Part shown: in pieces, positions 19,441-35,940 of the stretch
Layout: every line of letters begins with the position of its first letter
Numbering within the stretch: the first letter of the stretch is position 1
NCBI GenBank assembly: GCA_001717545.1
Contig: CP017039.1
Coordinates: 2,480,001 to 2,544,000, forward strand
Length of the DNA: 64,000 nucleotides
Direction of reading: 5' to 3'
Origin: Anaerolineaceae bacterium oral taxon 439
Lineage (GTDB): Bacteria; Chloroflexota; Anaerolineae; Anaerolineales; Anaerolineaceae
The notes under the pieces: generated by a model
The model's database searches: none
What the model saw: the letters and a program-made list of their open reading frames with translations, nothing else
What the model was told of the DNA's origin: nothing
Made by a program: the position numbers and the translations under genes

Positions 19441-20979
19441 TTACGACGCGTCCGCGTCGATCGGGTCGAACTGATAAATCGGGCGGGAATGCGTCGTCGC
19501 CGCTTCAGCGCGATCCGCGAAATACGACCCCACGCGCCAGCCCGACGTTCCGTCCGTAAAAGCGCATTCCGCTTTAACGAACGCGTCCCGCTCCGCCGCG
19601 TCGGTCTCCGGATCCGACAGATATAAATTCAGCGCCTCGCGCAGCTCCGCTTCGCTGGATGCGACGCGGCCGGCTCTCGCGGCGCGGAATCGTTCGTGCG
19701 TCGGCCATTCGCCAATTTCCGACAGCTTCAAATCAAACTTTCCCGGCGTGTCCCAGCCGTTCGGCGCGTCGATACAGACGGCGATGATCGGCCGGCGATG
19801 AATCGCGGTTTCAACGATCATCGTCGAATACACCGTACAGAAGACATCCGACCAGGCCATCATCGACGCCTTCTCCGGCATGTCCTCGCCGGAATAGAAA
19901 CCCAAATCCCCGCCCAGCGCGACCGGCTCAACGAGATGAACCAGCGGATTATCGGCGATCAGCGCGCGAATCCGGTTCGCTTCTTTTTCGAAAAGCGATC
20001 CGGGAATAAAATGATTCGGATGCAGCCGGATCAGCAGCTGCGTCGGTTCGCTCAGCGATCCATCGCTGACCAGCCGGACCAGCGCTTCAATATCCTGATA
20101 ATTCGGCGAAAAGCTCACGAACGAGCAGGCGAACGAAATCAGTTTCCGCCGCAAGTCCAGCCCATGCAGCGCGAAATATTCCTCGCGACTCATCAGCCAT
20201 TCCTTCCGGAAATAACCGTCATACGTCGGGATCCCGCCGACGTTGACCCGCTCCGGGAGCCAATCCGCCCCATCGGTCAGTTCGGTCTTCTGAATCTCGG
20301 ACCAGGCGTTGGCCCATTGAACCGGAGCGCCGGGGAGCCGGTACGAAGAAGGGTTATCCCAGCCGATCACGGCATACGCGGTTTCAATTCCACGCGCCGC
20401 CGCCTCCCGAAGCAGGTAGCGATCCAGCCGCCAGCCAGCCGTGCCCGCGATCACCAGAGACGGCTCGTATCGGTCGAACAGATCGCCATAGATCGCCGAC
20501 GTATATTTCATCTGCTGCCGGACATGCCGCTTCCGCAGCCAGCCCCATTTCCGCATCAGCGCCACTTTCGCACGGACCGACGGCAGGATCAGTTTCCCCC
20601 CGCGCGACGTCTCGAACGCCATCTGGCGCATGTGACTGTCGATCGCGTTCGTATTGACCCGGTCGGACCCGCCCATCCAGCGGATAAAATGGTTCCAGTA
20701 TTGAATTCGATGATCCTTGTTATGGCTATACGCTTTCGCCTGATCAAGCCGCAGGCCTTCGAAGAACAAATTCTCGTCTTCAAATTTTTCGCGTATCTTG
20801 TCCACAACGCCGTCGTCCGTTAAAATAACGACGCGAAATCCTCTGTCTGAAATCGTCCGCACGACGTCCGTTTGCAGGAAGTATACGATCGCCAGTCCAT
20901 GATCGGCGCAAATAAAAACCGTCCGCTGCAGCGGTCGGGACGTCCCCGGGCCTGATCGCGGTGTGTTAATCGTCGTCAT
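19441..20979 (-). CDS. Putative GT-B glycosyl- or glycerophosphotransferase
   Basis: A protein of 512 residues without membrane segments. The C-terminal half has LLIRLHPNHF, then FCTVYSTMIVETAIHRRPIIAV, a pattern shared by capsule-synthesis and CDP-glycerol transferases in which the second part of the GT-B fold binds the activated donor. The N-terminal part (ICADHGLAIVYFLQTDVVRTI) resembles the start of GT-B transferases acting on surface glycans. The ribosome site GGGGAGG is 12 bases upstream. The donor and acceptor are unknown. It lies between a GT2 gene and the GT39-like gene. Confidence 0.65.
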   Translation of the reverse strand: MTTINTPRSGPGTSRPLQRTVFICADHGLAIVYFLQTDVVRTISDRGFRVVILTDDGVVDKIREKFEDENLFFEGLRLDQAKAYSHNKDHRIQYWNHFIRWMGGSDRVNTNAIDSHMRQMAFETSRGGKLILPSVRAKVALMRKWGWLRKRHVRQQMKYTSAIYGDLFDRYEPSLVIAGTAGWRLDRYLLREAAARGIETAYAVIGWDNPSSYRLPGAPVQWANAWSEIQKTELTDGADWLPERVNVGGIPTYDGYFRKEWLMSREEYFALHGLDLRRKLISFACSFVSFSPNYQDIEALVRLVSDGSLSEPTQLLIRLHPNHFIPGSLFEKEANRIRALIADNPLVHLVEPVALGGDLGFYSGEDMPEKASMMAWSDVFCTVYSTMIVETAIHRRPIIAVCIDAPNGWDTPGKFDLKLSEIGEWPTHERFRAARAGRVASSEAELREALNLYLSDPETDAAERDAFVKAECAFTDGTSGWRVGSYFADRAEAATTHSRPIYQFDPIDADAS

Positions 20980-21007: not shown

Positions 21008-21955
21008 TCAATCCTGCCCGTAATACAATTTGAAAATCCGGTTGTAGACCGCCAGAAGCAATTTCCTGACCGGCGTCCATTCCTTCCACCGGAACGGCGT
21101 TTTGCGCTCCGGCGCGGGAGACTTCTCGCGCGCCGACAGCGTATTGCTCAGGTTCATCGCATACGGTTCGAGCGGCATCAGGCGTAAATATCCCGCCTCG
21201 TTCATGCGCTGGTCCAGCTGCTTAACCTGTCCCATCGGCCGCGACATCTCGAACGGCAGGAACTCGCGCAGGACCGATTTATACGCTGTGAATTGCCAGT
21301 GCGACGCGCCAGCGAGCGCGGTCAGTCCGTTATACGTAAGCTTCTGGTCGGTCGAACGCTCGTAATGCGCCCGGATTTCGTCCTCCGACTGACCCAGGCT
21401 CAGGTCGAATTCGCGGAACGTCGAATACGCGATAAAATCGCCCGATTCAAGCGCCGCGCCCTCCGTCTCCCGCGCCCAGACTTCCGTCCGATCGTAATAC
21501 GACGGGTTGGTTCGGAACGGCCGTGCGGTAACCATTCCAACGTTCGGGAACCCTTCTAAGAGCCGGAGCGACTCCCGAAGCCATCCCGCCGAAAACAGCG
21601 CGTCGTTATCCGTGTACGCGATAATTTCCCCCGGCGCGGCGCTGAAAATAACGTTCCAGGCGCCGCCTTTCCCGAGATTCTTTTCCGACAGGATCAAATA
21701 CTGAATTCTGCCTGCGTTCCGCTCCTCCGTCAGGTACGCAACCACCTCGGGACAGCTCCCGTTATCGAAGACCATCAGGTCATAGTCAACATCCGCCGCG
21801 CCCTCGCGAATCGACCGCAGGCATACGTCCAGAACCTTTGGCAGCTGCTCATAATAACCGCTCACGAACGGGATATAGTTCAGGACCGCGACCGTGACCC
21901 GCGCCGGATGCGCGACGGTTTTGACGAACTTCGCCGGATTCTGCCCGAGACGCAT
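21008..21955 (-). CDS. Family 2 glycosyltransferase
   Basis: A GT-A fold transferase of 315 residues. It starts with VTVAVLNYIPF, and has LMVFDNGSC, the LGKGGAWN donor-site loop and a DxD-type motif in IIAYTDNDALFSAGW. ATG 21955 is chosen because it lies two bases after the stop of the preceding gene; the longer frame to 22147 overlaps that gene and lacks family residues. Inverting transfer of a nucleotide-activated sugar to the growing surface glycan is expected. The acceptor is unknown. Confidence 0.85.
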   Translation of the reverse strand: MRLGQNPAKFVKTVAHPARVTVAVLNYIPFVSGYYEQLPKVLDVCLRSIREGAADVDYDLMVFDNGSCPEVVAYLTEERNAGRIQYLILSEKNLGKGGAWNVIFSAAPGEIIAYTDNDALFSAGWLRESLRLLEGFPNVGMVTARPFRTNPSYYDRTEVWARETEGAALESGDFIAYSTFREFDLSLGQSEDEIRAHYERSTDQKLTYNGLTALAGASHWQFTAYKSVLREFLPFEMSRPMGQVKQLDQRMNEAGYLRLMPLEPYAMNLSNTLSAREKSPAPERKTPFRWKEWTPVRKLLLAVYNRIFKLYYGQD

Positions 21956-21957
21956 CT

Positions 21958-22899
21958 TTATTTCCGTTCCTTTCCAGACCGAAGCGCGCGGCCGATTTTC
22001 AGCCGCAGCTCCCGATACGCTTTGATCGGATGGAAAACCGCGAAAAAAACGTTCCCGAGCGCTCTTGAATTCAACCGAATCAACGGAAAAATTTCGATCT
22101 CGCGAAAGAGCTTTTGCCAGCTGAACGGAAACGGTACAGGAACACACCCGTTCGTCAGCACATAATCGCAGTCGTTCAACGAGAAAATCGTGCGTTTTCC
22201 GCCGCCAATCTCAACGTTTTTTTCCGATTCCGGAAGGCGGTAATGCGACTGGCCGTTGGGAAGATGACCATAGTCGTGGTCCTGATGAATAATATCGATC
22301 GTCTCGGAGCAGTTAATCAATTTCCAACCGCTCCGCCGCGCCTCGTAAAACATCCAGTTATCCCAACCGGAACGCCCGATCGCAAAATCAGGAATGCGCT
22401 CGAAACAGGCGCGCGGGTAGATAAAATAATCGCTCCCACCGATCGGATGACGCCGGGCGCGCGTCCGGATCTCTTCCTTCAGCCGCGCTTCCCATCCCTC
22501 GGAAAACTCGATCGGCTCGCGCTGGTCAAGGTCCCATCGCTGACCCACAAGCAGGAATTTTTCCTCACGTTCGGCGACCCGCTTCGCGACGTCGACGAAT
22601 TCAGGGAAAAGGATAATATCGGCGTTCACGTAAGCCAGAAGCGGCGCGTCCGACGTTCGCCGCGCGATATCGAAAATATCGCTCAGGAGCGGCGTCCCCG
22701 ATTCGTTGCGCCTGACCTCCCCAACATAGCGGACGCCCAGCCTGTCCGCCGCCTCGCCGACGCCCGGATCGTCGCCGATCAGGACGATATCGACGTCGCG
22801 GCCCAGCGCTTTCCAGGAACGGATCGCGTTCGTCTGGATCAGCGCGATATGCGCCCGGTCGAATCCCTTCGGAGAAATAAAAATCGTCATCTCGCTCAT
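21958..22899 (-). CDS. GT-A-like glycosyltransferase
   Basis: A protein of 313 residues. The N-terminal part (ALGRDVDIVLIGDDPG, then LLAYVNADIILFPEF with an NAD metal-site triad) looks like a GT-A nucleotide-sugar domain. A central part has GGSDYFIYPRACFERI and GWDNWMFYEARRSGW, which I have seen in glycosyltransferases of surface-glycan loci. Its start overlaps the stop of the cytidylyltransferase gene (ATGA), indicating translational coupling. The sugar is unknown. Confidence 0.7.
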   Translation of the reverse strand: MSEMTIFISPKGFDRAHIALIQTNAIRSWKALGRDVDIVLIGDDPGVGEAADRLGVRYVGEVRRNESGTPLLSDIFDIARRTSDAPLLAYVNADIILFPEFVDVAKRVAEREEKFLLVGQRWDLDQREPIEFSEGWEARLKEEIRTRARRHPIGGSDYFIYPRACFERIPDFAIGRSGWDNWMFYEARRSGWKLINCSETIDIIHQDHDYGHLPNGQSHYRLPESEKNVEIGGGKRTIFSLNDCDYVLTNGCVPVPFPFSWQKLFREIEIFPLIRLNSRALGNVFFAVFHPIKAYRELRLKIGRALRSGKERK

Positions 22900-23663
22900 A
22901 CGTTTTCCCGGCCCCGCTCGTCGACCGCGTCGACGTTCTTCGCCTTCGTCAGGCGGTTCAGCTTCTCAATTTCAGGATGCGCCTCGACGAGCTTCAAAAC
23001 GTCGAGCCAGCCGATCGTCAACGGATCGGGGATCAGGCGGAACAGCGCCCGCATCATCGCCAGATCCTCCGGCGTATCGACCGTCCAGCGATGACGACCA
23101 TAGTCGGGGTCATGATCCATAATGCGCACCCTGCATCTTCCCTCGGTATTATAAAACCAGGGCATCACATGCTCCCGTTCATACAGCGCCTCCGCTTCCC
23201 GAAACGCCCGCGTCAGCCACGCCATCGAAACGATTTCCTCGTCCAGCCCGATCGGATATGTCCGCCGCCAGGGAGGGGGCAGGCGGTTCGCGGCAAAATC
23301 CGCGCCCTCATCCTCGTAAAAGCGGATCAGCGCGTCGATCAGCTCCGGATCAATCAGCGGACAATCGCCGGTCACGCGCACAACCCGATCCGCGCCGGAT
23401 CCCAGCGCCGCATGATAAAACCGATCCAAAACGTCGTAAACCGAACCTCGGTAAATCCTGACCTGATTCGCGCGCGCCCAGTCGACAATCGGCTTGTCCG
23501 CGTCGTCCGTCGTCGTCGCGACGATCAGCTCGTCGATCAGCCGCGCCCGTTTTCCGCGCTGAACCGCCCAATCGAGCATCGGCCGTCCCGCGATCTCTTC
23601 CAGGACCTTCCCGGGAAGCCGGCTCGACCCCATGCGCGCCTGAATAATCAGCGTAGTTTTCAT
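22896..23663 (-). CDS. Cytidylyltransferase, SpsF/NeuA-like
   Basis: An enzyme of 255 residues that activates a 2-keto-3-deoxy sugar acid with CMP. It has the N-terminal nucleotide motif IIQARMGSSRLPGK, the CTP/metal motif VVRVTGDCPLIDPE, and RHRWTVDTPEDLAMM near residue 215. These are typical of SpsF and of acylneuraminate/KDO cytidylyltransferases. Together with the NeuB-like synthase two genes upstream it supports synthesis of a CMP-nonulosonic acid. The next gene is coupled by a four-base overlap. Confidence 0.87.
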   Translation of the reverse strand: MKTTLIIQARMGSSRLPGKVLEEIAGRPMLDWAVQRGKRARLIDELIVATTTDDADKPIVDWARANQVRIYRGSVYDVLDRFYHAALGSGADRVVRVTGDCPLIDPELIDALIRFYEDEGADFAANRLPPPWRRTYPIGLDEEIVSMAWLTRAFREAEALYEREHVMPWFYNTEGRCRVRIMDHDPDYGRHRWTVDTPEDLAMMRALFRLIPDPLTIGWLDVLKLVEAHPEIEKLNRLTKAKNVDAVDERGRENV

Positions 23664-23711
23664 TTAAATCCGCTTATCCTCACCCTTTTCTGTTTTCGCC
23701 CGGACGCCGTT

Positions 23712-24851
23712 TCAGCCGGCGTTCCCAGCGGACAGCCCCGCAGCATGACGGATCGCGCTCGCATACGCCTCGGTAATCTTTCGAATATTCCGGCTCCAGT
23801 CCGCCTCGCTCTCAATCCGCAGCCGCGCCGAAGCGCCGATCGGGCGCAGCGTCGTCCGCCGCCGTGACAAAAAGAGCATGCGCTCCGCCATCGCGTCGCT
23901 GTCGCCGACCGGAAAAAGAAAACCGCTTTTCCCATCGTCGACCCATTCCAGATTTCCCGGTATATCCGAAACCAGAACCGGCAGCCCGCAGCCCATCGCC
24001 TCCAGCAGCGAAACCGACGATCCGTCGGTAATCGACGAGCTCAGGTACAAATCGGCGGCGCGGTAATAATCGACGAGTTCGTCGTACGGTTTCCGTCCAA
24101 GCCAATGGATCCGGCGCCGGACGTCCGCCGGAGCGGTCTCCGCCAACGCTTTCAACGCCGCGCGCTCCGACCCGTCCGCGAGAACCATCAACTGAATCGC
24201 CGCGTCCTCCGCCCCTGCCTTCAGGAACGCGCGGATCGTCGTATCGACGCGATAATTCGGTTCGAGCGATCGCAGGCTCAGCATCAGAAAATCCTCCGGC
24301 GGCGCGATCCCGCCGCGGACCGCGCTCGGTCCCGGCGAGAACCGTTTCGGATCGATTCCCCAGGGAAAGATCGTCGCCCGATCCTCCGGATAGCCCAGTG
24401 CCACCGCGCTTTCCAACTCCGTATAGCAGTCGCCCAAGAACCAGTCTGCGTTTTCCAACGCAAAAACCGCGCGCTCGCGCTGCCTCGGGTCGACGTAAAT
24501 ATCATGATTCAGGTCAAAACCCCAGGACATCGCGACATGCGGCCGCAGTTCCGCCAGCGCCGCAATATACGAAACGTCCGGAAGCGGACCGCTATGCAGA
24601 ACGTCAGGCCGAAGCTCCGCCGCAACCGCTTTCAGGTCTGCCGCGACGCGCGGGTAATCGGCGGGTGATACGATCGACGTCCCCCAGCGCCAGTCCACAG
24701 CGCGAATCCCGCCGGGAAGCCCGCGCCCGTCCAGTCCGCGTTTCTCGTCGCATAACCGTAAAAAATAACCTTCGTGCCCCAGCGCGGCGATCGCGCTAAG
24801 AAAACGCACGTCGTGCGGCGTGTAATCGCGGGTAAAATATAAAACCTTCAT
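23712..24851 (-). CDS. Family 4 glycosyltransferase
   Basis: A GT-B transferase of 379 residues. The N-terminal acceptor half begins MKVLYFTRDYTPHDVRF; the donor half has LMLSLRSLEPNYRVD, then YLSSSITDGSSVSLLEAMGCGLPVLVSDIPGNLEWV with the usual E-x7-E-like donor-binding region. It retains the configuration of the sugar donor. ATG 24851 overlaps the stop of the NeuB-like gene by four bases, so the two are coupled. Possibly it adds the sugar preceding or following the acidic sugar. Confidence 0.87.
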   Translation of the reverse strand: MKVLYFTRDYTPHDVRFLSAIAALGHEGYFLRLCDEKRGLDGRGLPGGIRAVDWRWGTSIVSPADYPRVAADLKAVAAELRPDVLHSGPLPDVSYIAALAELRPHVAMSWGFDLNHDIYVDPRQRERAVFALENADWFLGDCYTELESAVALGYPEDRATIFPWGIDPKRFSPGPSAVRGGIAPPEDFLMLSLRSLEPNYRVDTTIRAFLKAGAEDAAIQLMVLADGSERAALKALAETAPADVRRRIHWLGRKPYDELVDYYRAADLYLSSSITDGSSVSLLEAMGCGLPVLVSDIPGNLEWVDDGKSGFLFPVGDSDAMAERMLFLSRRRTTLRPIGASARLRIESEADWSRNIRKITEAYASAIRHAAGLSAGNAG

Positions 24852-25948
24852 GCGCCCGGTTCCGTCGGCGCCGCACACGGTCCGCCGGTTAAATCCGAAT
24901 AGCGGATTTCCTTCCCAAACGGAAGATCCGTTTTCAGCTTCAGCCCGATCAACGCTTCGATTTCATTCGGTTTAACCGCGCCGGGAATCGCGGGGCGCAG
25001 CACATCCAGCATCTCGCGCGTAATCGTCTCGCCCGCGCTCAGGTCCCGCGCAGCGCGGACGCAGCGGCGCTGGATCACCCGCGTTTCCGATTCGTTCGGG
25101 TTGACCCGCTTGATTTCCGAACCTAACGCCCGTTCCAGCCGCCGCGTATTAACGACCATCTCCTCCCACGTCCGCGGGTTCATCGCGAACTTATGATCCG
25201 GGCCTTCGCGGGTATTATCGTCTGTAAAATGCTTCTCAATTACGCGCGCGCCGAGCGCGACCGCGCCGAGTACGGTCGCGTGTCCCGGCGTATGATCCGA
25301 GAGCCCGAGGATCAGGTCCGGCCAGCGCCGCGCATAATCCTTCAGCACGTTCAGATGAATATGATCAAAATTTTCGAGCGACGCCGTGTAATTCGTGTTG
25401 CACTGCATCAGAACCAGCCGCGGATTAATCGCGGTAATCGTTTCAACCGCGCGGGTAACGTCTTCGAGCGTTGACGCGCCGGTCGCGAGGAGGACCGGCT
25501 TTCCCTTCTTCGCGACCCGTTCAAGCGCTTCGAGCCAGTCGATATCGCCGGAGCCGATTTTATAAATCGGAATATAGCGGTCGAGATAATCGATCGACTC
25601 GAAATCGTACGCCGCCGAACAGTACAGAATCCCAACCTTGTCACATTCCTCCTGCAGCTCGCTCGACCAGGCGTCCGGGACGGAAACGTCCCGATACGTT
25701 TCGAAAACCGACTTGCGCCAGCTTGCCTGGTGCGACTGCTGACCGCCCATATTCCGGAAGCCATAGTCTGAAACGATCTTTTCGGCTTTAAAATTCTGGA
25801 ACTTGGCGGCGTCCGCTCCTGCCTCCTTCGCCAGCCGGACAAGGGCTTTCGCCCGATTTAAATCACCGTCATGATTCGCGGCGATATCGGCAATAAAATA
25901 AACCGGACTCGCCGCCCCAACGGTCCGTTCTCCAAATTTCAATTCCAT
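24848..25948 (-). CDS. NeuB/SpsE-like nonulosonate synthase
   Basis: A protein of 366 residues with two parts. The first is a TIM barrel that condenses phosphoenolpyruvate with a hexosamine (IADIAANHDGDLNRAK, AAKFQNFKA, YKIGSGDI, LATGAS, GLSDHTPG). The second is a C-terminal SAF/antifreeze-like domain (residues ~300-355, AARDLSAGETITREMLDVLRP). It is of the NeuB/PseI/LegI class. Its neighbours (PseB-like dehydratase, reductase, SpsF-like cytidylyltransferase) define the sugar. No PseG-type UDP-hydrolase or GNE/NeuC-type epimerase-hydrolase is seen in the window. Confidence 0.88.
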   Translation of the reverse strand: MELKFGERTVGAASPVYFIADIAANHDGDLNRAKALVRLAKEAGADAAKFQNFKAEKIVSDYGFRNMGGQQSHQASWRKSVFETYRDVSVPDAWSSELQEECDKVGILYCSAAYDFESIDYLDRYIPIYKIGSGDIDWLEALERVAKKGKPVLLATGASTLEDVTRAVETITAINPRLVLMQCNTNYTASLENFDHIHLNVLKDYARRWPDLILGLSDHTPGHATVLGAVALGARVIEKHFTDDNTREGPDHKFAMNPRTWEEMVVNTRRLERALGSEIKRVNPNESETRVIQRRCVRAARDLSAGETITREMLDVLRPAIPGAVKPNEIEALIGLKLKTDLPFGKEIRYSDLTGGPCAAPTEPGA

Positions 25949-26880
25949 CGGTACTCCCAGAGTTTCATCGGAAATCCAGCCTTAAAATCGTCGCGGAACC
26001 CGGCGACGCCGGCGATCGGGTCCGGAACGTTCCCATCTAAAAATTTCGTCAGCCGATCGATATTCATCGCCAGGTTCGGCGACCGCACCGCGGCCAGACC
26101 GCTGTCGCGCCAGCTCGTCGGGCGGACGTTCTCCGGATTGAAGCCGAAGGCCTTCGCGATCTCGACCCCGAAATCATATTTACTCAGCGTTTTCGCCCCG
26201 AAGACATGAAAAACGCCGCGCTCGGACGATTCCAGGAGACGAACTAAAATCCGAGACAAATCGCGAACGTAGAGCGGGCTGAAAAAGACGTCCGTAAAAC
26301 CGGAAACGACGCGCCCGGCCTTCAGGTTCGTATAAAAAAACTCGCTCAGGCTCCGACGGCCGCTTATCGACCAGCCGAAAAAGTTAACCCGCGCAACGAT
26401 CGCGTCCGGATTCGCGCTGAGAACGTTCCGTTCGCCGAGCGCTTTACTTTCCGCGTATGAATTGATCGGACGGACCGGATCCGTTTCAGAATACCCGTTC
26501 GGGCCTGAAGCCTGACCGTCGAAAACCGCGTCGGTCGAAATATGTACGATCGGGATCGACCGTTTTCCCGCCGCCTCCGCGAAAAATCCGGGAACCATCC
26601 CATTTATCCAGCGCGCATCCTCAGGATTCTGTTCACAGGAATCAATATTTGCCATCGCCGCGCAATTCAGAATTGCGTCGGGTCGGATCTCGTCTACCAG
26701 CGCCGCCGCCGTGCCCGGAACAAAAAAATCCCTTTGAACAATAGCAAAGGGCAGCTCCTGCAGCAAGTTCCGGTTAACAACCCCGACAATTTCGTACGCT
26801 TCGCAGCTATGCAGCGCAAAATTCAATCCCAGGAGACCGGACGCGCCGGTCACCAATATTTTTTTCTTCGGTCCGCTCAA
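25939..26880 (-). CDS. RmlD-like SDR reductase (4-ketosugar reductase)
   Basis: A short-chain dehydrogenase of 313 residues: NAD(P) motif ILVTGASGLLGLNF, ISTDAVFDG with the active Ser/Thr, and a YAESKALGE catalytic Tyr-x3-Lys. It is closest in pattern to RmlD/FnlB-type reductases of 4-keto-6-deoxy sugars. It begins with TTG in a TTGA overlap with the PseB-like gene, so the two act as a translationally coupled pair. It has no C-terminal cupin, unlike FnlB/CapF. In Pse and Leg pathways this step would be an aminotransferase, so this gene changes the expected product. Confidence 0.8.
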   Translation of the reverse strand: MSGPKKKILVTGASGLLGLNFALHSCEAYEIVGVVNRNLLQELPFAIVQRDFFVPGTAAALVDEIRPDAILNCAAMANIDSCEQNPEDARWINGMVPGFFAEAAGKRSIPIVHISTDAVFDGQASGPNGYSETDPVRPINSYAESKALGERNVLSANPDAIVARVNFFGWSISGRRSLSEFFYTNLKAGRVVSGFTDVFFSPLYVRDLSRILVRLLESSERGVFHVFGAKTLSKYDFGVEIAKAFGFNPENVRPTSWRDSGLAAVRSPNLAMNIDRLTKFLDGNVPDPIAGVAGFRDDFKAGFPMKLWEYRWN

Positions 26881-27881
26881 TCGCCGCCTCCTGATATCTC
26901 CGCCTCAACCTGGGCGACCATTTTACGAATCCCGGGGATATCCAGCCAGGCTTGATTGTTGTCGCTTGAATACCGGTACCCGTCGGGACAGGGTTTCCCG
27001 ACTTTTTCCCATTCGCGCCCGAACCAGGTCACGCCGGAAGGCTGAACGACGAACATGTCGTCCATTTCGATCGTATTCCGCGCTTCGTCGTCGGAAATCA
27101 GGACTTCATGCAGCTTTTCGCCCGGGCGAATACCCGTGTAGACAATTTCAGCATCCGGCGAGATCGCCATCGCCAGATCCTTAACCGCCATGCTCGGGAT
27201 CTTCGGAACGAATACCTCCCCGCCGCGCATTTGCTCGATGCAGCGGATAACGAAACGAACGCCATCCTCAAGCGAAATCCAGAACCGCGTCATGCGCTCG
27301 TCGGTCACGGTCAGCTTGCCGTTGCCCCGCTGCCTCAGGAAGATCGGAACGACCGAACCGCGGCTCCCGACGACGTTCCCATAGCGGACGCAGCTCAGGC
27401 GCGTTTCCCGTCCGCCGGAATAGGCGTTGCTCTGAACAACCAATTTCTCGGCGGCGGCCTTCGTCGCGCCGTAAAGGTTGACCGGGTTGACCGCCTTATC
27501 GGTACTCAGCGCGAAAACCTTTTTGACGCTGGCGTCGAGCGCGGCGTCGATGACGTTCTGCGTCCCGAGAATATTCGTCTTAACGGCCTCGAACGGATTA
27601 TATTCGCAGGCCGGAACCTGTTTCAGCGCGGCGGCATGAACGACGATATCGACGCCCTGGAACGCCCGGCGAAGCCGCTCCAAATCACGGATATCGCCGA
27701 TAAAATAGCGCAGGCTCTCATGATTCTTCCCGGAAATCTGCATCTCATACTGCTTCAGCTCGTCGCGGCTCAGGACAATGATCTTCGCCGGATGATACTC
27801 GCGAAGCATGATATCGATAAATTTCTTCCCGAAAGAACCGGTTCCTCCTGTCACTAAGACGACTTTATTGTTCCATTCCAT
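26877..27881 (-). CDS. pseB: UDP-GlcNAc 4,6-dehydratase (inverting), PseB/FlaA1-like
   Basis: A protein of 334 residues, the same length as PseB/FlaA1. It shows VVLVTGGTGSFGKKF for NADP, DIRDLERLRRAF, the catalytic region LSTDKAVNPVNLYGATKAAAE (Thr/Asp/Lys triad with Tyr-x3-Lys) and the C-terminal GIRPGEKLHEVLI. It removes water from UDP-GlcNAc and inverts C5 to give the 4-keto-6-deoxy L-arabino sugar. It is the first gene of the nonulosonate section, after a 131-base gap with its own regulatory elements. FnlA/CapE (L-FucNAc pathway) is the main alternative identity. Confidence 0.87.
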   Translation of the reverse strand: MEWNNKVVLVTGGTGSFGKKFIDIMLREYHPAKIIVLSRDELKQYEMQISGKNHESLRYFIGDIRDLERLRRAFQGVDIVVHAAALKQVPACEYNPFEAVKTNILGTQNVIDAALDASVKKVFALSTDKAVNPVNLYGATKAAAEKLVVQSNAYSGGRETRLSCVRYGNVVGSRGSVVPIFLRQRGNGKLTVTDERMTRFWISLEDGVRFVIRCIEQMRGGEVFVPKIPSMAVKDLAMAISPDAEIVYTGIRPGEKLHEVLISDDEARNTIEMDDMFVVQPSGVTWFGREWEKVGKPCPDGYRYSSDNNQAWLDIPGIRKMVAQVEAEISGGGD

Positions 27882-28012: not shown

Positions 28013-28891
28013 TCAGGGTTTTTCGAGGAGGATCAGCGGATACTGGCCCGCTTCGCCGTATACCTCCGGCGCTTCGTTTTCAATCCGGAATAACCGACGC
28101 AGCGCCGCCTTCCCGTAAGGCGCATGAATCAGCGCCCGAAGCCAGCGAACCGAAACCGACCGCCAGCAACGGATCGAAATTTTCGCGTCCGGCGCGACTT
28201 TCGGCAATTCGCTCCGGATCCAGCCGGCGTCCAGCTTCCGAACGAAGGTACCGGTCGCTTCCGCGGCGGGCTTCGCGGGGCACGGCGCTTTCGCGCCCGG
28301 ATCGTTTTTCTTCCCTACCGGAGCCGCCCTTCCGCGAAGCCTGGCGATCCAGCCGCCGGCCCGTTCCGCCGCGCGGACGAACGGAAGCCACCGTTTCATC
28401 ATCTCCGACTCCGTCCAGCCGTTGACGACGGCGGCAATCCCGCCGGGCTTCAGAACGCGATAAATCTCGCCCCAGGCCTTACGCTGATCGGGAAGCTCCA
28501 GATGATGCAGCGTATGCAGCGAGACGACCCCGTCAACCGTCTCCGGCGCAAACGGCAGATTCGCCGCGTCGCCGACGACAAAAAGCCCGTGATCGCCGAT
28601 TCGCTTCCGCGCTTCGAGAAGCGCCGTCAGCGATATATCGCAGCAGAGCCGATATCTAAACTTTTCGGAATACGTCAGGTACTCGGGATACTGGATCGGA
28701 CCGCAGCCCAAATCCATCAGGATCCTCCCGCCGACCTTGAAATACGGCGTAATTCGCAAATGACAGGCATGGATATAGTCCGCCGAGACTGGGCGCAGGT
28801 CCTCATAACGCGCGTTCTGATAAAAGCCGTCAGATTCGAGTCGCCAGCCGATCCGATCGTAAAAAGCGCGGACGTTTTCTTTCGATTCCAT
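28013..28891 (-). CDS. Class I SAM-dependent methyltransferase
   Basis: A protein of 292 residues. The SAM site is MDLGCGPIQYPEYL, then CDISLTALLEARKR, VGDAANLPF and VVSLHTLHHL, the standard Methyltransf_11 order. It probably methylates a sugar of the surface glycan, such as a terminal residue that caps the chain and is read by the exporter's C-terminal domain; this is an inference from location. It lies four bases after the capsule-type transferase gene. An Ala/Lys/Pro-rich insert at residues ~195-215 is unusual. Confidence 0.85.
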   Translation of the reverse strand: MESKENVRAFYDRIGWRLESDGFYQNARYEDLRPVSADYIHACHLRITPYFKVGGRILMDLGCGPIQYPEYLTYSEKFRYRLCCDISLTALLEARKRIGDHGLFVVGDAANLPFAPETVDGVVSLHTLHHLELPDQRKAWGEIYRVLKPGGIAAVVNGWTESEMMKRWLPFVRAAERAGGWIARLRGRAAPVGKKNDPGAKAPCPAKPAAEATGTFVRKLDAGWIRSELPKVAPDAKISIRCWRSVSVRWLRALIHAPYGKAALRRLFRIENEAPEVYGEAGQYPLILLEKP

Positions 28892-28895
28892 CGCG

Positions 28896-30521
28896 TTACG
28901 CCGCTTTCCCGGATTCGAGCGTTAAAATCTTTGCCCAATCCATCGGCTCGCCGAGCAGGTAATTAAACGATGCGCCGTATTCCGCCTGCCCCTCGTCGCT
29001 CAGGACGGACGCGAACGGGCGTTTATCGTAATCGTCCCACATGCGGACGAGATGCCACGGGAAGGGGCGCGGATATTCGAAGAAGAACGAATAAGCGTAA
29101 GCCCAGGCTAAATAGACCTGTTCGCTGGTAAGGGCGGACTTCTCCGGATCGTCGAGGATCGAGCTGACCATTTTATAATACGTGACCCAGCTGGTTGGAT
29201 CGTAAGTAAATCCGCGGTTCCGGTAATGCGTCTGACCGGCGACGACGACCGGGACCCCGCTCATCGCCATTTCCAGACCCATCGTCGTCGTATAAACCAG
29301 CCCGACGGTCGCGATATCGACAAGATCGTAGGAATTGGTTTTATCGGTCGGCGTGATCAGGTGAATATGCGACGGGAGATTCGGGCTCAGCGCTTCAACG
29401 ACGTCGACCATCGACGTTCCATGGGTAAACTGCTCGCCCGGATGAACGCGGATAACGAGCTGCGCGTCGGTTCGTTCGAGGAAATACTGAATCGTCCGTT
29501 CGATCCATTCCGCCATATTGCGAGAAAACGTCTGCCGCCCCAGCGTCAGCGAATCTCCCAGAACGTTCGTCGCCAGAAAGACGACCGGACGATCGTCCAA
29601 CCCCAGCGCCTCCCGGATTTTCTCCTGCCCGACGCGATCGGACCCCTGCCAACGACGCGAAAAATTTTCCCAGAGATCGGCTTTCTGCCGCGCGTTGAAC
29701 ATCGATCGCACCTTCTCCAAATCGCCGTCGGTCGCGAGCGCGTCCTTCCGAACGGCCCATAAATCGTCCGTCTCCTGGCGCATGACTTCGCGATTCTGCG
29801 CGATCCAGATCCGTTTGCGCTGTTCCCCGAATTCATACGTGGTAACCGGGATCCCGAGCCATTTCGCAACGCGGTACGCAACGCCCATTTCCTGAATCGT
29901 CCCGTTCGGAACGATGACCTGGTCCGGGTGGTTTGCCTGAATCCAGTTGTACAGCAGTTTCGCGAACGTTTCGTTCCGCTCGCGGCGCATTTTATAGAGC
30001 GCGTTGTCCTTGTCGAAATCCTCGACCTGAAGGGTATACTGCGTATCGTAGGTCGCGACTTCGTCGGCGATCGCGCTGATCTCTTCCGGGAAGGCCTTAT
30101 AACTCGGGAACGACGGCATGAACGAATGCAGCTTCATGTACTTCTGCGTCGAATCGAGTACGCTCCTGGTATACAGGTCCTGCTTCCGGACGTCGAACTT
30201 ATTGACGGGATTCTGCCAGTCCGCGTATGGAAGATAGCCGAACGTAACGTCATGGCCCGTCGCCGCAAAATACAGCGCCAGCGTCGCCGCCTCCTCGATC
30301 CAGTAGTGAAGCGAGGTAAAAACGAGGATTTTTTTCGGATTCTCCGTCGTCCGCCGGCCGGCTTCAATCTCGGGAAGCATCTTCGGCAGCCGGGCTTTCA
30401 GGTTCTTCAATGAGTACCGGGTTCCCGGCTCGTTATTTTTCTTAAACTGAAAATAAAATTCGGCCGTAAGCGGAATTTCGCCCAGGAACCGCGTGATAAG
30501 CTGTTTATATCCTATTGACAT
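28896..30521 (-). CDS. Capsule-type (KpsS/GT-B-like) polysaccharide transferase
   Basis: A protein of 541 residues. The C-terminal region reads LVIRVHPGEQ, then ATVGLVYTTTMGLEMAMSGV PVVVAG (split here by a space) and HYRNRGFTYDP, close to the capsule-synthesis family (PF05159) and related GT-B transferases. The N-terminal region (KILVFTSLHYWIEEAATLAL) fits the acceptor half. Its start overlaps the stop of the Wzt-like gene by ten bases. It probably builds the linker or repeat of the exported glycan; the sugar is unknown. Confidence 0.75.
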   Translation of the reverse strand: MSIGYKQLITRFLGEIPLTAEFYFQFKKNNEPGTRYSLKNLKARLPKMLPEIEAGRRTTENPKKILVFTSLHYWIEEAATLALYFAATGHDVTFGYLPYADWQNPVNKFDVRKQDLYTRSVLDSTQKYMKLHSFMPSFPSYKAFPEEISAIADEVATYDTQYTLQVEDFDKDNALYKMRRERNETFAKLLYNWIQANHPDQVIVPNGTIQEMGVAYRVAKWLGIPVTTYEFGEQRKRIWIAQNREVMRQETDDLWAVRKDALATDGDLEKVRSMFNARQKADLWENFSRRWQGSDRVGQEKIREALGLDDRPVVFLATNVLGDSLTLGRQTFSRNMAEWIERTIQYFLERTDAQLVIRVHPGEQFTHGTSMVDVVEALSPNLPSHIHLITPTDKTNSYDLVDIATVGLVYTTTMGLEMAMSGVPVVVAGQTHYRNRGFTYDPTSWVTYYKMVSSILDDPEKSALTSEQVYLAWAYAYSFFFEYPRPFPWHLVRMWDDYDKRPFASVLSDEGQAEYGASFNYLLGEPMDWAKILTLESGKAA

Positions 30522-31786
30522 GATTCAACCTCTATTTCCCAGTCCAGTTTCGGCCGGATCAGTCCGGTCCGCGACTCGGCCCATTGGCTTCCCGGCGCGC
30601 CGGTCCCATCAACGTTGAACGTCAGCGCCTGTTCGTCATGAAAATAGCGCTTGATCCGAAACGAGCTGGCGTTTACTCCGACGACGAAACGTCCGTCGTT
30701 CAGCAGGTCCGCCGGAACCGTACAGCGGCTCCGGTACGTCCCCGCCCCCCGCGTCCCGAAAGTTTCGAATTTCTCCGGATCGTCCGAATCGAACGAGGTA
30801 AATACGAATTCGCCGCGCGTCGAAATCAGGTAGAACCCAACGCGCAGCCCGGTAATCGCCCCGTCCAGCCGGTAGGTAAATTCGATCTGGAACGGTTCCG
30901 TCGAGCGGACCGTATCGGAAACGATTCCCTGCGGGTTCAGGATTTTCAGAGAGGCGGGAACGAACGGCGCGGCGTCGGACGGGACCTCGTCCGCGCGCCA
31001 GCTCCGCTCCCCGCCCTGCGAAAATCCATGCGACAGGTAATAATCGACTGCTTCCGGCGTCGGCGACTGCATCACCAGCCTGCCCTTCTCGAGAACGACC
31101 GTCTCCGACGTCAGCCGCAGGATCGCCGACATGTTATGCGAAACGAAAAGGACGGTCCGGCCCGCGTTCGCCACGTCGGTCATCTTCCCTAAACATTTGC
31201 GCTGAAACTCGGCGTCGCCAACCGCCAGGACTTCGTCGACAACGAGAACCTCGGGTTCGAGATGCGCCGCGACCGCGAACGCCAGCCGCAGGTACATGCC
31301 GCTGGAATAACGCTTGACCGGCGTATCGATAAACCGTTCGACTTCGGAAAACGCGATAATCTCGTCGAGCTTCGACGAGATCTCCTGATTTTTCATTCCC
31401 AAAATCGCGCCGTTGAGGAAGATATTTTCGCGCCCGGTCAGCTCCGGATGGAACCCGGTCCCGACTTCAAGAAGCGAGCCGACGCGGCCATGAATTTTCG
31501 CGCTTCCGACGGTCGGATCGGTAACGCGGGAAAGAATCTTGAGGAGCGTCGATTTTCCCGCGCCGTTTCGCCCGATAATCCCGAGCGCTTGGCCTTCCTT
31601 CACCTTAAAAGAAATATCGTCGAGCGCCCAGAAGGTTTCCGCCTGATTTTCGCCTGACTGCGGATTGCGGAAGCGTTTGAGCCTGTCGGCGAGCGTTTCC
31701 CGGAACGTCCGGTACATCGTCGGCATCGAACCGATTTTATACCGCTTCCCGATATGACTGACCTCGACGGAATATCGATCGCTCAT
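30512..31786 (-). CDS. wzt: Polysaccharide ABC exporter ATPase with C-terminal glycan-recognition domain
   Basis: A protein of 424 residues. The N-terminal ~245 residues are an ABC ATPase (Walker A GIIGRNGAGKSTLL, signature RYSSGMYLRLAFAVA, Walker B VLVVDEVLAVGDAEF, LFVSHNM). The remaining ~180 residues form a beta-rich domain like Wzt-C, which in O-antigen systems binds the modified chain end before export. With the permease encoded just upstream it moves an undecaprenyl-linked glycan across the membrane. Confidence 0.92.
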   Translation of the reverse strand: MSDRYSVEVSHIGKRYKIGSMPTMYRTFRETLADRLKRFRNPQSGENQAETFWALDDISFKVKEGQALGIIGRNGAGKSTLLKILSRVTDPTVGSAKIHGRVGSLLEVGTGFHPELTGRENIFLNGAILGMKNQEISSKLDEIIAFSEVERFIDTPVKRYSSGMYLRLAFAVAAHLEPEVLVVDEVLAVGDAEFQRKCLGKMTDVANAGRTVLFVSHNMSAILRLTSETVVLEKGRLVMQSPTPEAVDYYLSHGFSQGGERSWRADEVPSDAAPFVPASLKILNPQGIVSDTVRSTEPFQIEFTYRLDGAITGLRVGFYLISTRGEFVFTSFDSDDPEKFETFGTRGAGTYRSRCTVPADLLNDGRFVVGVNASSFRIKRYFHDEQALTFNVDGTGAPGSQWAESRTGLIRPKLDWEIEVESCQ

Positions 31787-31798
31787 GGGCTCCTCCGT

Positions 31799-32653
31799 TC
31801 AGATGACGTCCGCGAAATCGCGTTCCATCCGGCGGAAATAAACCAGGCCGGTTATCAGGATCACCAACGAAATCAGCGACGAAAACAGCAGGCTCTGCCA
31901 GGGGAGCTGCGTATACGTGCCCAGCAAAGCGCGACGGAACCCGTTGACGACGCCGACCATGGGGTTCAGGTTATAAACCATCCGCCATCTCGGCGCGCGG
32001 ATCAGCTCCGAGCCGTACGCAATCGGCGTCAGGTACATCCACAGCTGCGAAATAAACGGGATAATATACCCGATATCCCGATATAAAACGTCGAGCGCCG
32101 AAAACCATAAACTGACTCCAAACGAGGTCACAACCGTCAGCAGGAGGTAAAACGGGATCAGCAAAACATACCCGTTCGGCGTATACCCATAATAAATCAT
32201 CACCCCGATCAGGATCGGCAGCGCGACGAAAAAATCGACGACGCTCGACAGTACGCTCGACATCGGCAGCACGACGCGCGGAAAATAAATCTTGGTAATC
32301 ATGTTGCGGTTGCTGACGAGCGATTTGCTGCCGTTCCGAAACGCGTTCTCGAAGAGCTGCCACGGGAGAAGGCCGGCCAGCGAAAAAAGCGGGTACGGGA
32401 TCCCGTCCGAGGGGACCGACGCGAGGTTCCCGAAGAAAATCGAGAACACGACCATCGTCATCACCGGCTGGATCACGGCCCAGGCGACGCCTAAAAGCGT
32501 CTGCTTATAGCGGACCTTCAGGTCGCGCCAGCTCAGAAAAAAAATCAGTTCGCGAAAACGGCCGAGCTCCCTTAAATCAATCAACCGCCAGCTGCTCGCT
32601 GGCTGAATCGTGATTTCCGGAATGATATCACCGCGCCTCGTCTCCAAAATCAA
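31799..32653 (-). CDS. wzm: Polysaccharide ABC exporter permease
   Basis: An ABC-2-type permease of 284 residues with six membrane segments (about residues 53-280). The N-terminal amphipathic stretch LRELGRFRELIFFLSWRDLKVRYKQ is typical of Wzm/TagG. The only in-frame start that keeps the family N-terminus is TTG at 32653, directly after the stop of the epimerase gene. It forms the export channel with the Wzt-like ATPase. Confidence 0.9.
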   Translation of the reverse strand: MILETRRGDIIPEITIQPASSWRLIDLRELGRFRELIFFLSWRDLKVRYKQTLLGVAWAVIQPVMTMVVFSIFFGNLASVPSDGIPYPLFSLAGLLPWQLFENAFRNGSKSLVSNRNMITKIYFPRVVLPMSSVLSSVVDFFVALPILIGVMIYYGYTPNGYVLLIPFYLLLTVVTSFGVSLWFSALDVLYRDIGYIIPFISQLWMYLTPIAYGSELIRAPRWRMVYNLNPMVGVVNGFRRALLGTYTQLPWQSLLFSSLISLVILITGLVYFRRMERDFADVI

Positions 32654-33631
32654 TCAGCCTTTCGCCAGAATCATGTCGCGGTTCTCGACGTAATAGCGGA
32701 TCGTTTCCCTGAGCCCGGTTTTGAAATCGGTTGTCGCGCGGAAGCCGAACGCTTTTTCGGCGCGGCTGACGTCAAGCGCGCGGCGCGGCTGACCGTTGGG
32801 CCTGGCGGCGTCGTAAGTTAACGCGCCGCCGTACCCGACTTCGCGCGCGATCAGCGCGGCCAGATCGCGGATCGAAATTTCCATTCCCGATCCGATATTA
32901 ACCGGATCGGCGCCATCGTAACGCTCCGTCGCTAAGACGATTCCTTCCGCCGCGTCGTCGGCGTAAATAAATTCGCGCGTCGGCGTTCCGTCGCCCCAGA
33001 TTTCAACCGAAGGCGCCGAAGCTAACTTCGCTTCGTAGAACTTTTGAATCAGCGCCGGAATAACATGCGACGATTTTGGGCTGAAATTATCGCGCGGGCC
33101 GTACAGGTTCACCGGGAGAAGGTAAATTGCGTTGAATCCGTACTGTTCCCGGTAGGCTTGCGCCTGAACCAGGAGCATCTTTTTCGCGAGGCCGTACGGC
33201 GCGTTCGTTTCCTCCGGATAGCCGTTCCAGAGATCGTCTTCTTTGAACGGGATCGGCGTAAATTTCGGATATGCGCAAATCGTTCCGATAGCGACGAACT
33301 TTTCGACGCCGCTCCGGTACGCCTCGTGCATCAGCTGAACGCCCATCATCAGGTTTTCATAGAAAAATTCAGCGCCGTGAAGCTGGTTCGCACCGATCCC
33401 GCCGACGTTGGCGGCGAGATGCAGAATGATTTCCGGGCGAGCGTCCCGGATTAAGCGCTTCACGCCATCCGGATCGACTAAATCATAATCGCGATGCGCC
33501 GGGATGAAGAGTTCGTCTACGCCGCGCGCCCTGAGCCGGTCCACGACGAACGAACCTAAAAAACCAGCTCCGCCGGTAACGCAGATCCGTTTCCCGATCA
33601 GCGGTGAGTGATCCCTGGATACATTCGTCAT
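32654..33631 (-). CDS. GDP-L-fucose synthase-like NAD-dependent epimerase
   Basis: An extended SDR of 325 residues: [16 protein letters not shown] for [25 protein letters not shown] and the catalytic Tyr-x3-Lys in YGLAKK, the order seen in Fcl/WcaG. Fcl converts GDP-4-keto-6-deoxymannose to GDP-L-fucose. No GDP-mannose dehydratase is in the window, so its substrate must come from elsewhere, or it acts on a related 4-keto sugar. It is the first gene of the 14-gene cluster and follows a strong promoter and a structured leader; AGGAG lies ten bases before the start. Confidence 0.8.
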
Positions 33632-34328: not shown

Positions 34329-35894
34329 ATGAAAAGCAAAGTTTCCTTCCTTTTTATCCTCTTGATCCTCGCCGTTTTCGCCGTTTCCGCCTCCGCCGGC
34401 GCGGAAAGCGAAGGCGGTACGCTGACGATCGGCTTAAGCGTCGAACCGTTCACGATCGACCCCGCCGGCGGGGTTTATATTTCCGAAGCGCTCCTGATCC
34501 AGCAGATTTACGATCCGCTTATTTTCTCCGATCCGGAAGGCGAGCTCTATCCGGGTCTGGCGACCGAATGGTCGGCGAACGACGACGGGACCGAATACAG
34601 CCTCAAGCTCCGCGACGACGTCAGATTTCACGACGGAACGCCGTTCACCGCCGAAGCGGTTAAAGCCGCGCTGGACCGCGCGAAAGACGGGCTGACGCCG
34701 ATCGCGGCGTCTCCGGCGCTCCTGACGACGTACGCTGGAACGGAAATTGTCGATGACACGACCGTTATCGTCCGGTTCAGCGAAACTAACGCGACTTTTT
34801 TACAGGATCTTTCGCGCGCATGGCTGATGATTCCCGCGCCAACGGCAGGAGAGAACGAATATATTGGGACCGGTCCGTTCGTTTTCGAATCCTGGGCGCA
34901 GCAGGACAGCGTCACGCTCAGAAAAAACACGGCATATAACGTTGCGCCTGAATTCATGACGCATAGCGGACCGGCATATCTCGACGAAATTATTTTCCGC
35001 TTCCTCCCGGAGCAGGCGACCCGCGCAATCGCGCTCCAGACCGGCGAAGCCCAGATCGTTCAGGATCCCTCGCCGGTCGACGCCTTGGCGATGATCGACG
35101 ATCCAGATTATCAGGTCTTTACGTTTGCCGCTCCCGGCGTCCCTGCGCACCAGATGATCAACACGGAGAAATTCCCGACCGACGACCTGAACGTTCGAAA
35201 AGCGATGAATTACGCGGTCGATCAGGACGCGATCATGGAAGCCGGAACGATGGGGCTGACGCCCGCGGCGCATGGCATTATCACGCCAACGACCTGGGGG
35301 TATAACGCCGACGCGGACAATCTTTACCCGTTCGATCTTGAAAAAGCGAAATCGATTTTAGAAGAAGCCGGGTGGATCGACGAAAACGGCGACGGCGTCC
35401 GTGAAAAGGACGGGCGGAAGCTGACGATCGATTACCCCGCGCTCCCCGCTTACGAGGAACAGTTCATGGAGCTCCTCGCCTACGCGCTTCAGGACGCCGG
35501 TTTTGAAGTGAACCTGATGACGATGGACGACGCCGGTATTTCCGCCGCGGGCGGAGCCGGAGAGCATAATATCCTGAATATGGGCTGGCTCAGCCGCGAT
35601 CCCTCTGTCCTGGCTTACATGTTCCTGTCGTCGAATATCGAAGGCGGTTCGGCGTACAGCCGCTTCCGAAGCGACCGCCTGGACGAAATCCTGACGCTCG
35701 CGCCGAAGACCGTCGACGCCGACGAACGAAAAGCGCTGTACGAAGAGGCGCAGTCGATTATCATGGAAAACGCGCTCGTTATCCCGATCCATGCGTACAG
35801 CAGCCTGTACATCGCGGATACAGCGGTCGAAAACTTTACGTTCGACGCGGAAGGATACCCGATCTTCTATAACGTTTCGCTCGCCGCTGAATAG
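34329..35894 (+). CDS. Oligopeptide/dipeptide-type solute-binding protein (SBP family 5)
   Basis: A protein of 521 residues with a signal peptide (MKSKVSFLFILLILAVFAVSASA). The family-5 opening is GGTLTIGLSVEPFTIDP, then YDPLIFSDPEGELYPGLATEW and VRFHDGTPFTAEAVKAALDRA. Such proteins bind peptides, nickel or sugars such as glutathione and cellobiose for Dpp/Opp importers. The ribosome site AGGAG is before ATG 34329. The operon continues with two permeases and an amidohydrolase; DppD/DppF-type ATPases are absent. Confidence 0.93.
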   Translation: MKSKVSFLFILLILAVFAVSASAGAESEGGTLTIGLSVEPFTIDPAGGVYISEALLIQQIYDPLIFSDPEGELYPGLATEWSANDDGTEYSLKLRDDVRFHDGTPFTAEAVKAALDRAKDGLTPIAASPALLTTYAGTEIVDDTTVIVRFSETNATFLQDLSRAWLMIPAPTAGENEYIGTGPFVFESWAQQDSVTLRKNTAYNVAPEFMTHSGPAYLDEIIFRFLPEQATRAIALQTGEAQIVQDPSPVDALAMIDDPDYQVFTFAAPGVPAHQMINTEKFPTDDLNVRKAMNYAVDQDAIMEAGTMGLTPAAHGIITPTTWGYNADADNLYPFDLEKAKSILEEAGWIDENGDGVREKDGRKLTIDYPALPAYEEQFMELLAYALQDAGFEVNLMTMDDAGISAAGGAGEHNILNMGWLSRDPSVLAYMFLSSNIEGGSAYSRFRSDRLDEILTLAPKTVDADERKALYEEAQSIIMENALVIPIHAYSSLYIADTAVENFTFDAEGYPIFYNVSLAAE

Positions 35895-35940
35895 GCCTCG
35901 GAACGATTCAGGAAAAACGGAGAAAATAACGTATTAAACG

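Follow-up and report, generated by a model that had tools for sequence, protein, structure and literature searches.

A PseB-reductase-NeuB gene module in Anaerolineaceae bacterium oral taxon 439 and the probably reductive nonulosonic acid pathway that it may encode

The gene run and its enzymes

The stretch of DNA analysed here (the window) comprises 64,000 nucleotides (nt), bases 2480001-2544000 of the one-contig genome of Anaerolineaceae bacterium oral taxon 439 (2,945,494 bases, 99.89% complete), and carries a minus-strand gene run, spanning 33631 down to 17450 in window coordinates, in which a PseB-like dehydratase, an RmlD-like reductase and a NeuB-family nonulosonate synthase follow one another. 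It opens upstream with a GDP-fucose-synthase-like short-chain dehydrogenase/reductase (SDR), an ABC exporter of the Wzm/Wzt type, a capsule-synthesis-like protein of 541 aa and a methyltransferase-like protein. PseB, the RmlD-like reductase and NeuB come next, and the run continues with a GT4 glycosyltransferase, the SpsF-like cytidylyltransferase and other genes, part of them glycosyltransferase-like (Table 1). An earlier note on this DNA had seen here a nonulosonic acid locus with a ketoreductase where the aminotransferase should be; that reading went largely in the right direction, and the module proved to be wider than first described and is probably reductive.

The PseB and RmlD-like genes overlap by 4 nt, the RmlD-like gene and NeuB by 10 nt and NeuB and GT4 by 4 nt, the last of these when GT4 is read from the ATG at 24851, which gives an ATGA overlap with the NeuB stop (the longest open reading frame, 23712-24878, opens with GTG). 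The SpsF-like gene overlaps the following gene by 4 nt. The earlier note had described four tightly coupled genes (PseB, reductase, NeuB and SpsF), and all four are indeed present on the minus strand, but the GT4 gene sits between NeuB and SpsF and is separated from the latter by a gap of 48 nt. No PseC, PseH or PseG was recognised among the operon genes scanned, in agreement with the note, the search for PseH not being genome-wide.

The window PseB passed the cut-off of the pseudaminic-pathway equivalog and contains the motif STDK...YGATK. The form STDK...YxxxK is given for the C5-inverting class of these dehydratases, whereas the retaining class has DE at that place (PMC8987622). [ST]DK was present in all 61 readable PseB-like proteins of the 80 loci described below, and YxxxK as well in 57 of them; these counts cover the proteins left after clustering and filtering by length, a PseB fragment in locus L135 stops short of the motif, and the 61 include a second copy from L126 that is part of an adjacent locus. 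STDK and YxxxK were both found in 23/23 PseB proteins from relatives.

The RmlD-like reductase belongs to the SDR family, and its S115, Y142 and K146 were invariant in all 90 module reductases aligned (again those past the clustering step and the length filter). An AlphaFold2 model built from 34 sequences reached a pLDDT of 95.7, its top Foldseek matches being MAT2B and RmlD with TM scores of about 0.8. The protein scored below the cut-off of the RmlD equivalog, and 70 module reductases split from seven RmlDs of rhamnose operons in a quick tree (SH-aLRT branch support of 96). For the SpsF-like protein, the top match in the PDB was 6oew, named as a cytidylyltransferase (E 6.6e-33).

Table 1. 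Genes of the run in window coordinates, with the matches behind each assignment; the five genes from PseB to SpsF come first
Feature	Position	Strand	Evidence
PseB, UDP-GlcNAc 4,6-dehydratase, predicted C5-inverting	26877..27881	-	TIGR03589 479.2 bits, cut-off 407.75; STDK...YxxxK
RmlD-like SDR, predicted UDP-4-keto-6-deoxy-HexNAc 4-reductase	25939..26880	-	PF04321 168.8 bits; TIGR01214 170.2 bits, below cut-off 224.05
NeuB-family nonulosonate synthase, distinct clade, SAF domain	24848..25948	-	PF03102 240.8 bits, PF08666 37.6 bits
GT4-family glycosyltransferase between NeuB and SpsF	23712..24851	-	PF00534 92.8 bits
SpsF-like CMP-sugar (nonulosonate) cytidylyltransferase, predicted	22896..23663	-	PF02348 106.9 bits
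GDP-L-fucose-synthase-like SDR	32654..33631	-	NF047922 306.8 bits, below cut-off 500
Wzm-like ABC exporter permease	31799..32653	-	recognised from sequence without family search; place kept in relatives
Wzt-like ABC exporter ATPase	30512..31786	-	recognised from sequence without family search; place kept in relatives
Capsule-synthesis-like protein (541 aa), candidate ulosonate transferase	28896..30521	-	PF05159 Capsule_synth 22.2 bits, cut-off 20
Class I S-adenosylmethionine (SAM) methyltransferase-like protein, upstream in run	28013..28891	-	weak methyltransferase family matches, all below cut-off; place kept in relatives
Hypothetical protein, glycosyltransferase-like at most	21958..22899	-	sole match PF13579, E 0.082; kept in relatives
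GT2 glycosyltransferase, true start uncertain	21008..22147	-	PF00535 47.1 bits; open reading frame overlaps neighbour by 190 nt
Hypothetical protein, possible glycosyltransferase	19441..20979	-	NF046086 27.7 bits, below cut-off 200; PF04464 19.8 bits, below cut-off 22.1

The synthase clade and the spread of the module

The window NeuB fell below the cut-offs of both synthase equivalogs, with 276.8 against 399.65 bits for NeuB (TIGR03569) and 233.1 against 340.25 bits for PseI, and its membership of the NeuB superfamily held (PF03102 and the SAF domain PF08666, Table 1). In a maximum-likelihood tree of 105 synthases, whose bootstrap was not fully settled, 89 members related to the window NeuB formed one branch apart from 16 reference synthases with 100/100 support, a separation that was partly expected because the members had been chosen by similarity. 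The references were labelled as pseudaminic (Pse), legionaminic (Leg), neuraminic (Neu) or other by annotation or by their neighbours, and the NeuB of L149 has one internal stop, which was masked in the alignment, and was left out of the trees. The active-site strings, a further mark of distinction, were mostly of the KIGSGD and QCNTNYT types in the clade and KIASFE and C[TV]SxYP in the Pse references. The clade NeuBs also keep a GF...HQ..W.KSV stretch in the region to which section 7 of PMC7371886 assigns the C4-C6 specificity of synthases. As judged by the tree, the NeuBs of the module form a phylogenetically distinct synthase clade.

Orthologs of the window NeuB were found in 25/25 genomes searched of the host's genus and family (E 5.1e-142 or lower in each). 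With the threshold set at E 1e-100, NeuB was present in 136/201 sampled genomes of the order and in 86 of the 108 of good quality, and in a sample of 301 genomes of the phylum it was found in 24, corresponding to the host genome, 22 more from the order and a single one from elsewhere in the phylum. This last one (G472:C61:35476-36462) has a NeuB of 60% identity, possibly acquired by horizontal transfer. In our judgement, a gene for a surface sugar would not ordinarily be so constant within an order. The earlier note called the host a non-pathogen, a status that we infer from its family.

Around the orthologous NeuB of 28 relatives (29 loci, L046-L074, with L037 left out as too short), the reductase was found in 26 loci, PseB in 25, SpsF in 28 and GT4 in 29/29, and the gene order of the cassette recurred. 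In two of the three loci without a reductase the contig ended at NeuB, and in the third the 1.9 kb available upstream contained none. Twenty other NeuB loci of relatives served as a control (with flanks of about 4 kb, or less where a contig ended) and had neither PseB (0/20) nor RmlD (0/20).

The wider collection was scanned with an alignment of ten such NeuBs, with confirmation by a Maritalea NeuB that shares 53% identity with that of the window, and out of at least 569 loci the 80 best were picked by NeuB similarity alone. Neighbours were counted by tblastn over all 80 loci. An RmlD-like reductase lay within 6 kb of NeuB in 72/80 loci and within 200 bp in 67/80; PseB was found within 6 kb in 65/80, a CMP-transferase (SpsF or NeuA) in 66/80 and all three in 52/80, some of the misses falling at contig ends. 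PseB and the RmlD-like reductase occurred together in 60 loci, which belong to 14 named phyla, one of them archaeal, plus two unassigned records. A DegT aminotransferase within 1 kb and a NeuC/WecB-like protein within 6 kb were each seen in 2/80. Among the eight loci without an RmlD match, four had a match to another SDR query (L079, L093, L128 and L140), in L114 a reductase was revealed by protein clustering alone, and none was seen in L082, L110 or L134. No Fusobacterium was present among these best 80 of at least 569 loci, and in a plasmid search, 40 of whose 102 records were listed, a single listed NeuB exceeded 50% identity, on a Maritalea plasmid.

Judging from these neighbourhoods, the association of PseB, reductase and NeuB is more than chance, as its order recurs in relatives and the association itself recurs across phyla, and the genes constitute a compact cassette common to bacteria and archaea of many phyla. 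The suggestion that a reductase stands in the place of the aminotransferase was supported, in a module conserved across phyla.

Proposed pathway and competing explanations

Searches of the whole genome returned a single PseG match, at 20.6 bits against a cut-off of 153.55, and only one PF02350 protein, which is WecB (455.6 bits) and reached 86.7 against 235.9 bits on the NeuC model, so that no hydrolysing 2-epimerase of the NeuC/LegG type was found. Eight DegT matches were obtained, four of them short and weak and four full-length; the latter were all below the PseC (423.5) and LegC (420) cut-offs, with a best score of 289.9 bits against PseC. One full-length DegT passes WecE-type cut-offs, and one lies near a NeuD/PglB/VioB-type acetyltransferase. 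An aminotransferase or hydrolase set elsewhere, named in the earlier note as refuting its reading, was not found in the genome at the PseC, LegC, PseG and NeuC cut-offs. In 49 genomes carrying clade members (those of 50 of the 80 loci, with L111 left out), PseC was over its cut-off in four, PseG in five and NeuC in nine.

We consider it likely that the operon encodes a reductive nonulosonic acid pathway for an exported surface glycan. PseB, assigned by family and motif, would convert UDP-N-acetylglucosamine (UDP-GlcNAc) into UDP-2-acetamido-2,6-dideoxy-L-arabino-hexos-4-ulose, and the RmlD-like SDR, in place of PseC and PseH, would reduce the 4-ketone to a UDP-6-deoxy-N-acetylhexosamine (UDP-6-deoxy-HexNAc), in the simplest case 6-deoxy-L-AltNAc (2-acetamido-2,6-dideoxy-L-altrose). 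After removal of UDP by some enzyme, to which no gene is assigned, the clade synthase would condense the free HexNAc with phosphoenolpyruvate into a 5-acetamido-3,5,9-trideoxynonulosonate with OH at C7, a type of reaction expected from its family. SpsF would then form the CMP-sugar, the glycosyltransferases of the operon would place the sugar in the glycan and the Wzm/Wzt-type ABC transporter would export it. The PseB, synthase and SpsF steps are proposed from family membership, and the reduction from the conserved replacement by a reductase and from the precedent of Pdeg/Preq, a dehydratase and a 4-reductase with genes overlapping by 4 nt that are reported to make UDP-N-acetylquinovosamine (UDP-QuiNAc) (PMC4514872).

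The stereochemical logic of the earlier note, leading to a 9-deoxy, 7-hydroxy nonulosonate, held when followed in Fischer projection: inversion of GlcNAc at C5 with reduction at C4 gives the L-ido or the L-altro configuration, so that 6-deoxy-L-AltNAc can be formed, and L-altro gives after condensation either L-glycero-L-manno (the Pse configuration, here with a 7-OH) or L-glycero-L-gluco. The computed mass of the predicted nonulosonate is 293.11 as free acid and 275.10 as residue. According to PMC13014188, L-glycero-L-gluco is the tentative configuration of fusaminic acid, which occurs side by side with 6-deoxy-L-AltNAc in the O-chain of Fusobacterium nucleatum 25586. Fusaminic acid resembles the predicted product in being a 5-amino-3,5,9-trideoxynonulosonate with OH at C7, and the 6-deoxy-L-AltNAc of the O-chain is the expected product of the reductase; the Fusobacterium sugar carries, however, an acetimidoyl group, and its tie to the module is one of chemical logic only.

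When compared with known systems, the module shares with the pseudaminic pathway (PseB-C-H-G-I-F) the first step by PseB, a NeuB-family synthase with a SAF domain and CMP activation, but it has a reductase where PseC and PseH act, no PseG, an SpsF-like protein in place of PseF, and a synthase of a separate clade with Gly instead of Phe in the KIxSx motif. With the legionaminic pathway of Bacillus subtilis (SpsM, C, D, G, E, F; PMC7439481), it has in common UDP-linked precursors and enzymes of the SpsE and SpsF types, whereas no counterpart of SpsC, SpsD or SpsG was recognised and a reductase is present instead. The synthesis of UDP-D-QuiNAc in Bacillus cereus differs in that Pdeg is retaining and no nonulosonate step follows, and Preq is stated to share 33% identity with a GDP-sugar 4-reductase (PMC4514872). 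No description of a PseB-reductase-NeuB module was found in the Creative Commons-licensed literature of PubMed Central.

Several observations weigh against a reductive pathway, or against details of it. No UDP-sugar hydrolase of known nonulosonate pathways was found in the genome, other families such as Nudix not being included in the search. The residue aligned with position 132 of NmeNeuB is Gly in 87/89 clade members and Phe in 4/4 Pse references, and Gly is reported there for Neu and Leg synthases (PMC7371886, section 7), which is a point against a C2 configuration of the Pse type, although this residue does vary, SpsE of Bacillus, a Leg synthase, having Tyr. Three module PseBs (L097:5081-6106, L102:5099-6142 and L134:9052-10107) have MxxxK instead of YxxxK, a motif listed for retaining enzymes of the PglF type in PMC8987622, and may, to judge from this motif, make another stereoisomer. 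Since, in addition, Pdeg is retaining in spite of being 46% identical to PseB (PMC4514872), inversion at C5 by PseB is not proven. The 80 loci were not a random sample, being biased to likeness with one sequence and containing many metagenome bins. A DegT lay within 6 kb of NeuB in 28 of them and a GNAT followed NeuB directly in 30 of 75, three of these GNATs scoring 57-63 bits on PseH (cut-off 93.1), so that amine chemistry may occur in some lineages. A survey of granular sludge names, in the text of PMC10483923 available to us, only Pse/Leg, Kdn (ketodeoxynonulosonic acid) and N-acetylneuraminic acid, with no statement there on a search at 293 Da. The reductive-branch reading was sustained as regards the replacement by a reductase and the recurrence of the module, but not as regards the removal of UDP, which is unaccounted for, or the synthase, whose Gly is not Pse-like.

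Some of these points would also fit a different division of labour, in which PseB and the reductase make a UDP-6-deoxy-HexNAc as a building block of the glycan, with NeuB and SpsF handling a different sugar of the same glycan. No known hydrolase connects the UDP-sugar to NeuB, the Gly at position 132 is not Pse-like, and 6-deoxy-L-AltNAc does stand beside fusaminic acid in the O-chain of F. nucleatum 25586 (PMC13014188). We regard this explanation as unlikely, though not far-fetched, as the reductase was within 200 bp of a clade NeuB in most of the loci, from many phyla, and beside none of the 20 other NeuBs, and no other aldose-supplying gene family was as frequent in the loci. It is also conceivable that the reductase acts later, on a 7-keto nonulosonate formed by condensation of the 4-keto sugar or of another precursor, or that it epimerises as well and yields another configuration. 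Reaction order is not fixed by gene order, the NeuB stretch in the C4-C6 binding region differs from that of the reference synthases, and CapF/WbjC-type reductases also epimerise. RmlD-type reductases, however, have nucleotide-bound 4-keto sugars as substrates, and Pdeg/Preq is a reported parallel (PMC4514872), which makes a later or epimerising reaction improbable.

A standard pseudaminic or legionaminic pathway, with its aminotransferase, acetyltransferase and hydrolase encoded elsewhere in the genome, could be supposed from the four full-length DegTs, one of them near an acetyltransferase, and from Shewanella oneidensis, reported to have a flagellar nonulosonate though without clear orthologs of PseH, PseG, PseI and PseF (PMC3765264), a case implying that weak homologs of pathway enzymes can be missed. 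With all four DegTs below the PseC and LegC cut-offs and no PseG or NeuC above theirs, with no PseC above cut-off in 45/49 clade genomes and no PseG in 44/49, and with the conserved reductase left without a role, we find it quite improbable; a hidden Pse or Leg set was rejected on these scores and after inspection of the surroundings of two of the DegTs. It is more doubtful still, and hardly credible in our view, that the RmlD-like protein is a dTDP-rhamnose enzyme merely neighbouring nonulosonate genes. It has the SDR fold, the catalytic residues and the motifs of the RmlD family, but the module reductases are in a separate clade, the window protein is below the equivalog cut-off and none of the operon genes scanned was recognisable as rmlA, rmlB or rmlC. 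Elsewhere in the genome, at approximately 264-268 kb, there is a full rmlA, B, C, D operon with a bona fide RmlD (281.2 bits), which argues against a rhamnose role for the window reductase, and we rejected this role, which the earlier note had named beforehand as refuting its reading.

If the reductive pathway is extended from this operon to the clade, its product may represent another major class of nonulosonic acid in addition to Neu, Leg, Pse and Kdn. This would be a 9-deoxy, 7-hydroxy sugar made by reduction, with a synthase clade to itself, occurring in 14 phyla or more (archaea among them) and almost throughout the host's family, and its precursor would be released from UDP by some further enzyme or by a synthase activity; this broader proposal could in our estimation equally prove right or wrong. 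If true, there would be a gene signature for a type of sugar that has been reported by structure and for which no synthesis genes were found in the literature searched, and genomes annotated as producers of sialic or pseudaminic acid by NeuB homology alone may make something else. The host's family, with the synthase in every genome searched, would have a conserved surface sugar findable by its mass, and the absent UDP-removing step becomes a concrete biochemical question.

Variants of the module and other glycan genes

The gene directly 3' of NeuB was considered as a candidate for the missing hydrolase and not supported, because its family varies between loci and no single family fits: it is a GT4 in the relatives, but in the 75 of the 80 loci with a called NeuB it was a PseH-like GNAT in 30, GT2 in 28, GT4 in four, something else in seven and not called in six. 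The 28896 protein was likewise considered. Its AlphaFold2 model, obtained from five sequences, had a pLDDT of 71, and the Foldseek matches were weak and of the GT-B type (TM below 0.3 of the query), with UDP-GlcNAc 2-epimerases among the top matches and KpsC at rank 43. Neither the model nor these matches are strong enough to settle the function, but a paralogue near a second NeuB of the genome and the weak capsule-synthesis match favour a transferase over a hydrolase.

This second nonulosonate locus is situated outside the window, at about 2890-2896 kb of the contig (L004:10771-16125), and contains an SDR, a fusion of NeuA with a KdsC/KDN-9-phosphatase-like domain, a short NeuB, a protein of 557 aa that resembles the 28896 protein (25% over 311 aa) and another PseF-like protein. 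Its SDR-NeuA-NeuB part recurred in 17 of the 20 control loci, with an eighteenth cut by a contig end. The locus looks Kdn-like.

One Paenibacillus and one Oceanobacillus locus had the module near Maf-type transferases together with FliD and FliS, or with flagellin, surroundings that fit a CMP-nonulosonate product; for other Bacillales loci, Maf/flagellar surroundings were indicated by gene cluster only. Eight loci (L093, L099, L115, L120, L123, L124, L134 and L156) had beside the module an SpsF-like domain fused to a class III (glutamate-1-semialdehyde-aminomutase-like) aminotransferase, and in L079 SpsF was fused to an aldo-keto reductase. A fourth MxxxK protein, in L126, belongs to the neighbouring locus there. 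A DUF4910 protein accompanied by an aminoglycoside-3-N-acetyltransferase-like protein was found in the Maritalea plasmid locus (L075, 746-11523), in L061 and L068 and, by eye, in L070, a combination of families that suggests N-deacylation and re-acylation of the sugar. The plasmid locus also contains a part annotated as HAD-IIIC and, besides it, a MaoC-SDR protein.

Finally, the plus strand next to the glycan locus (34329-37733 of the window) carries genes resembling those of an oligopeptide ABC transporter, as seen from the translations of the first two only.

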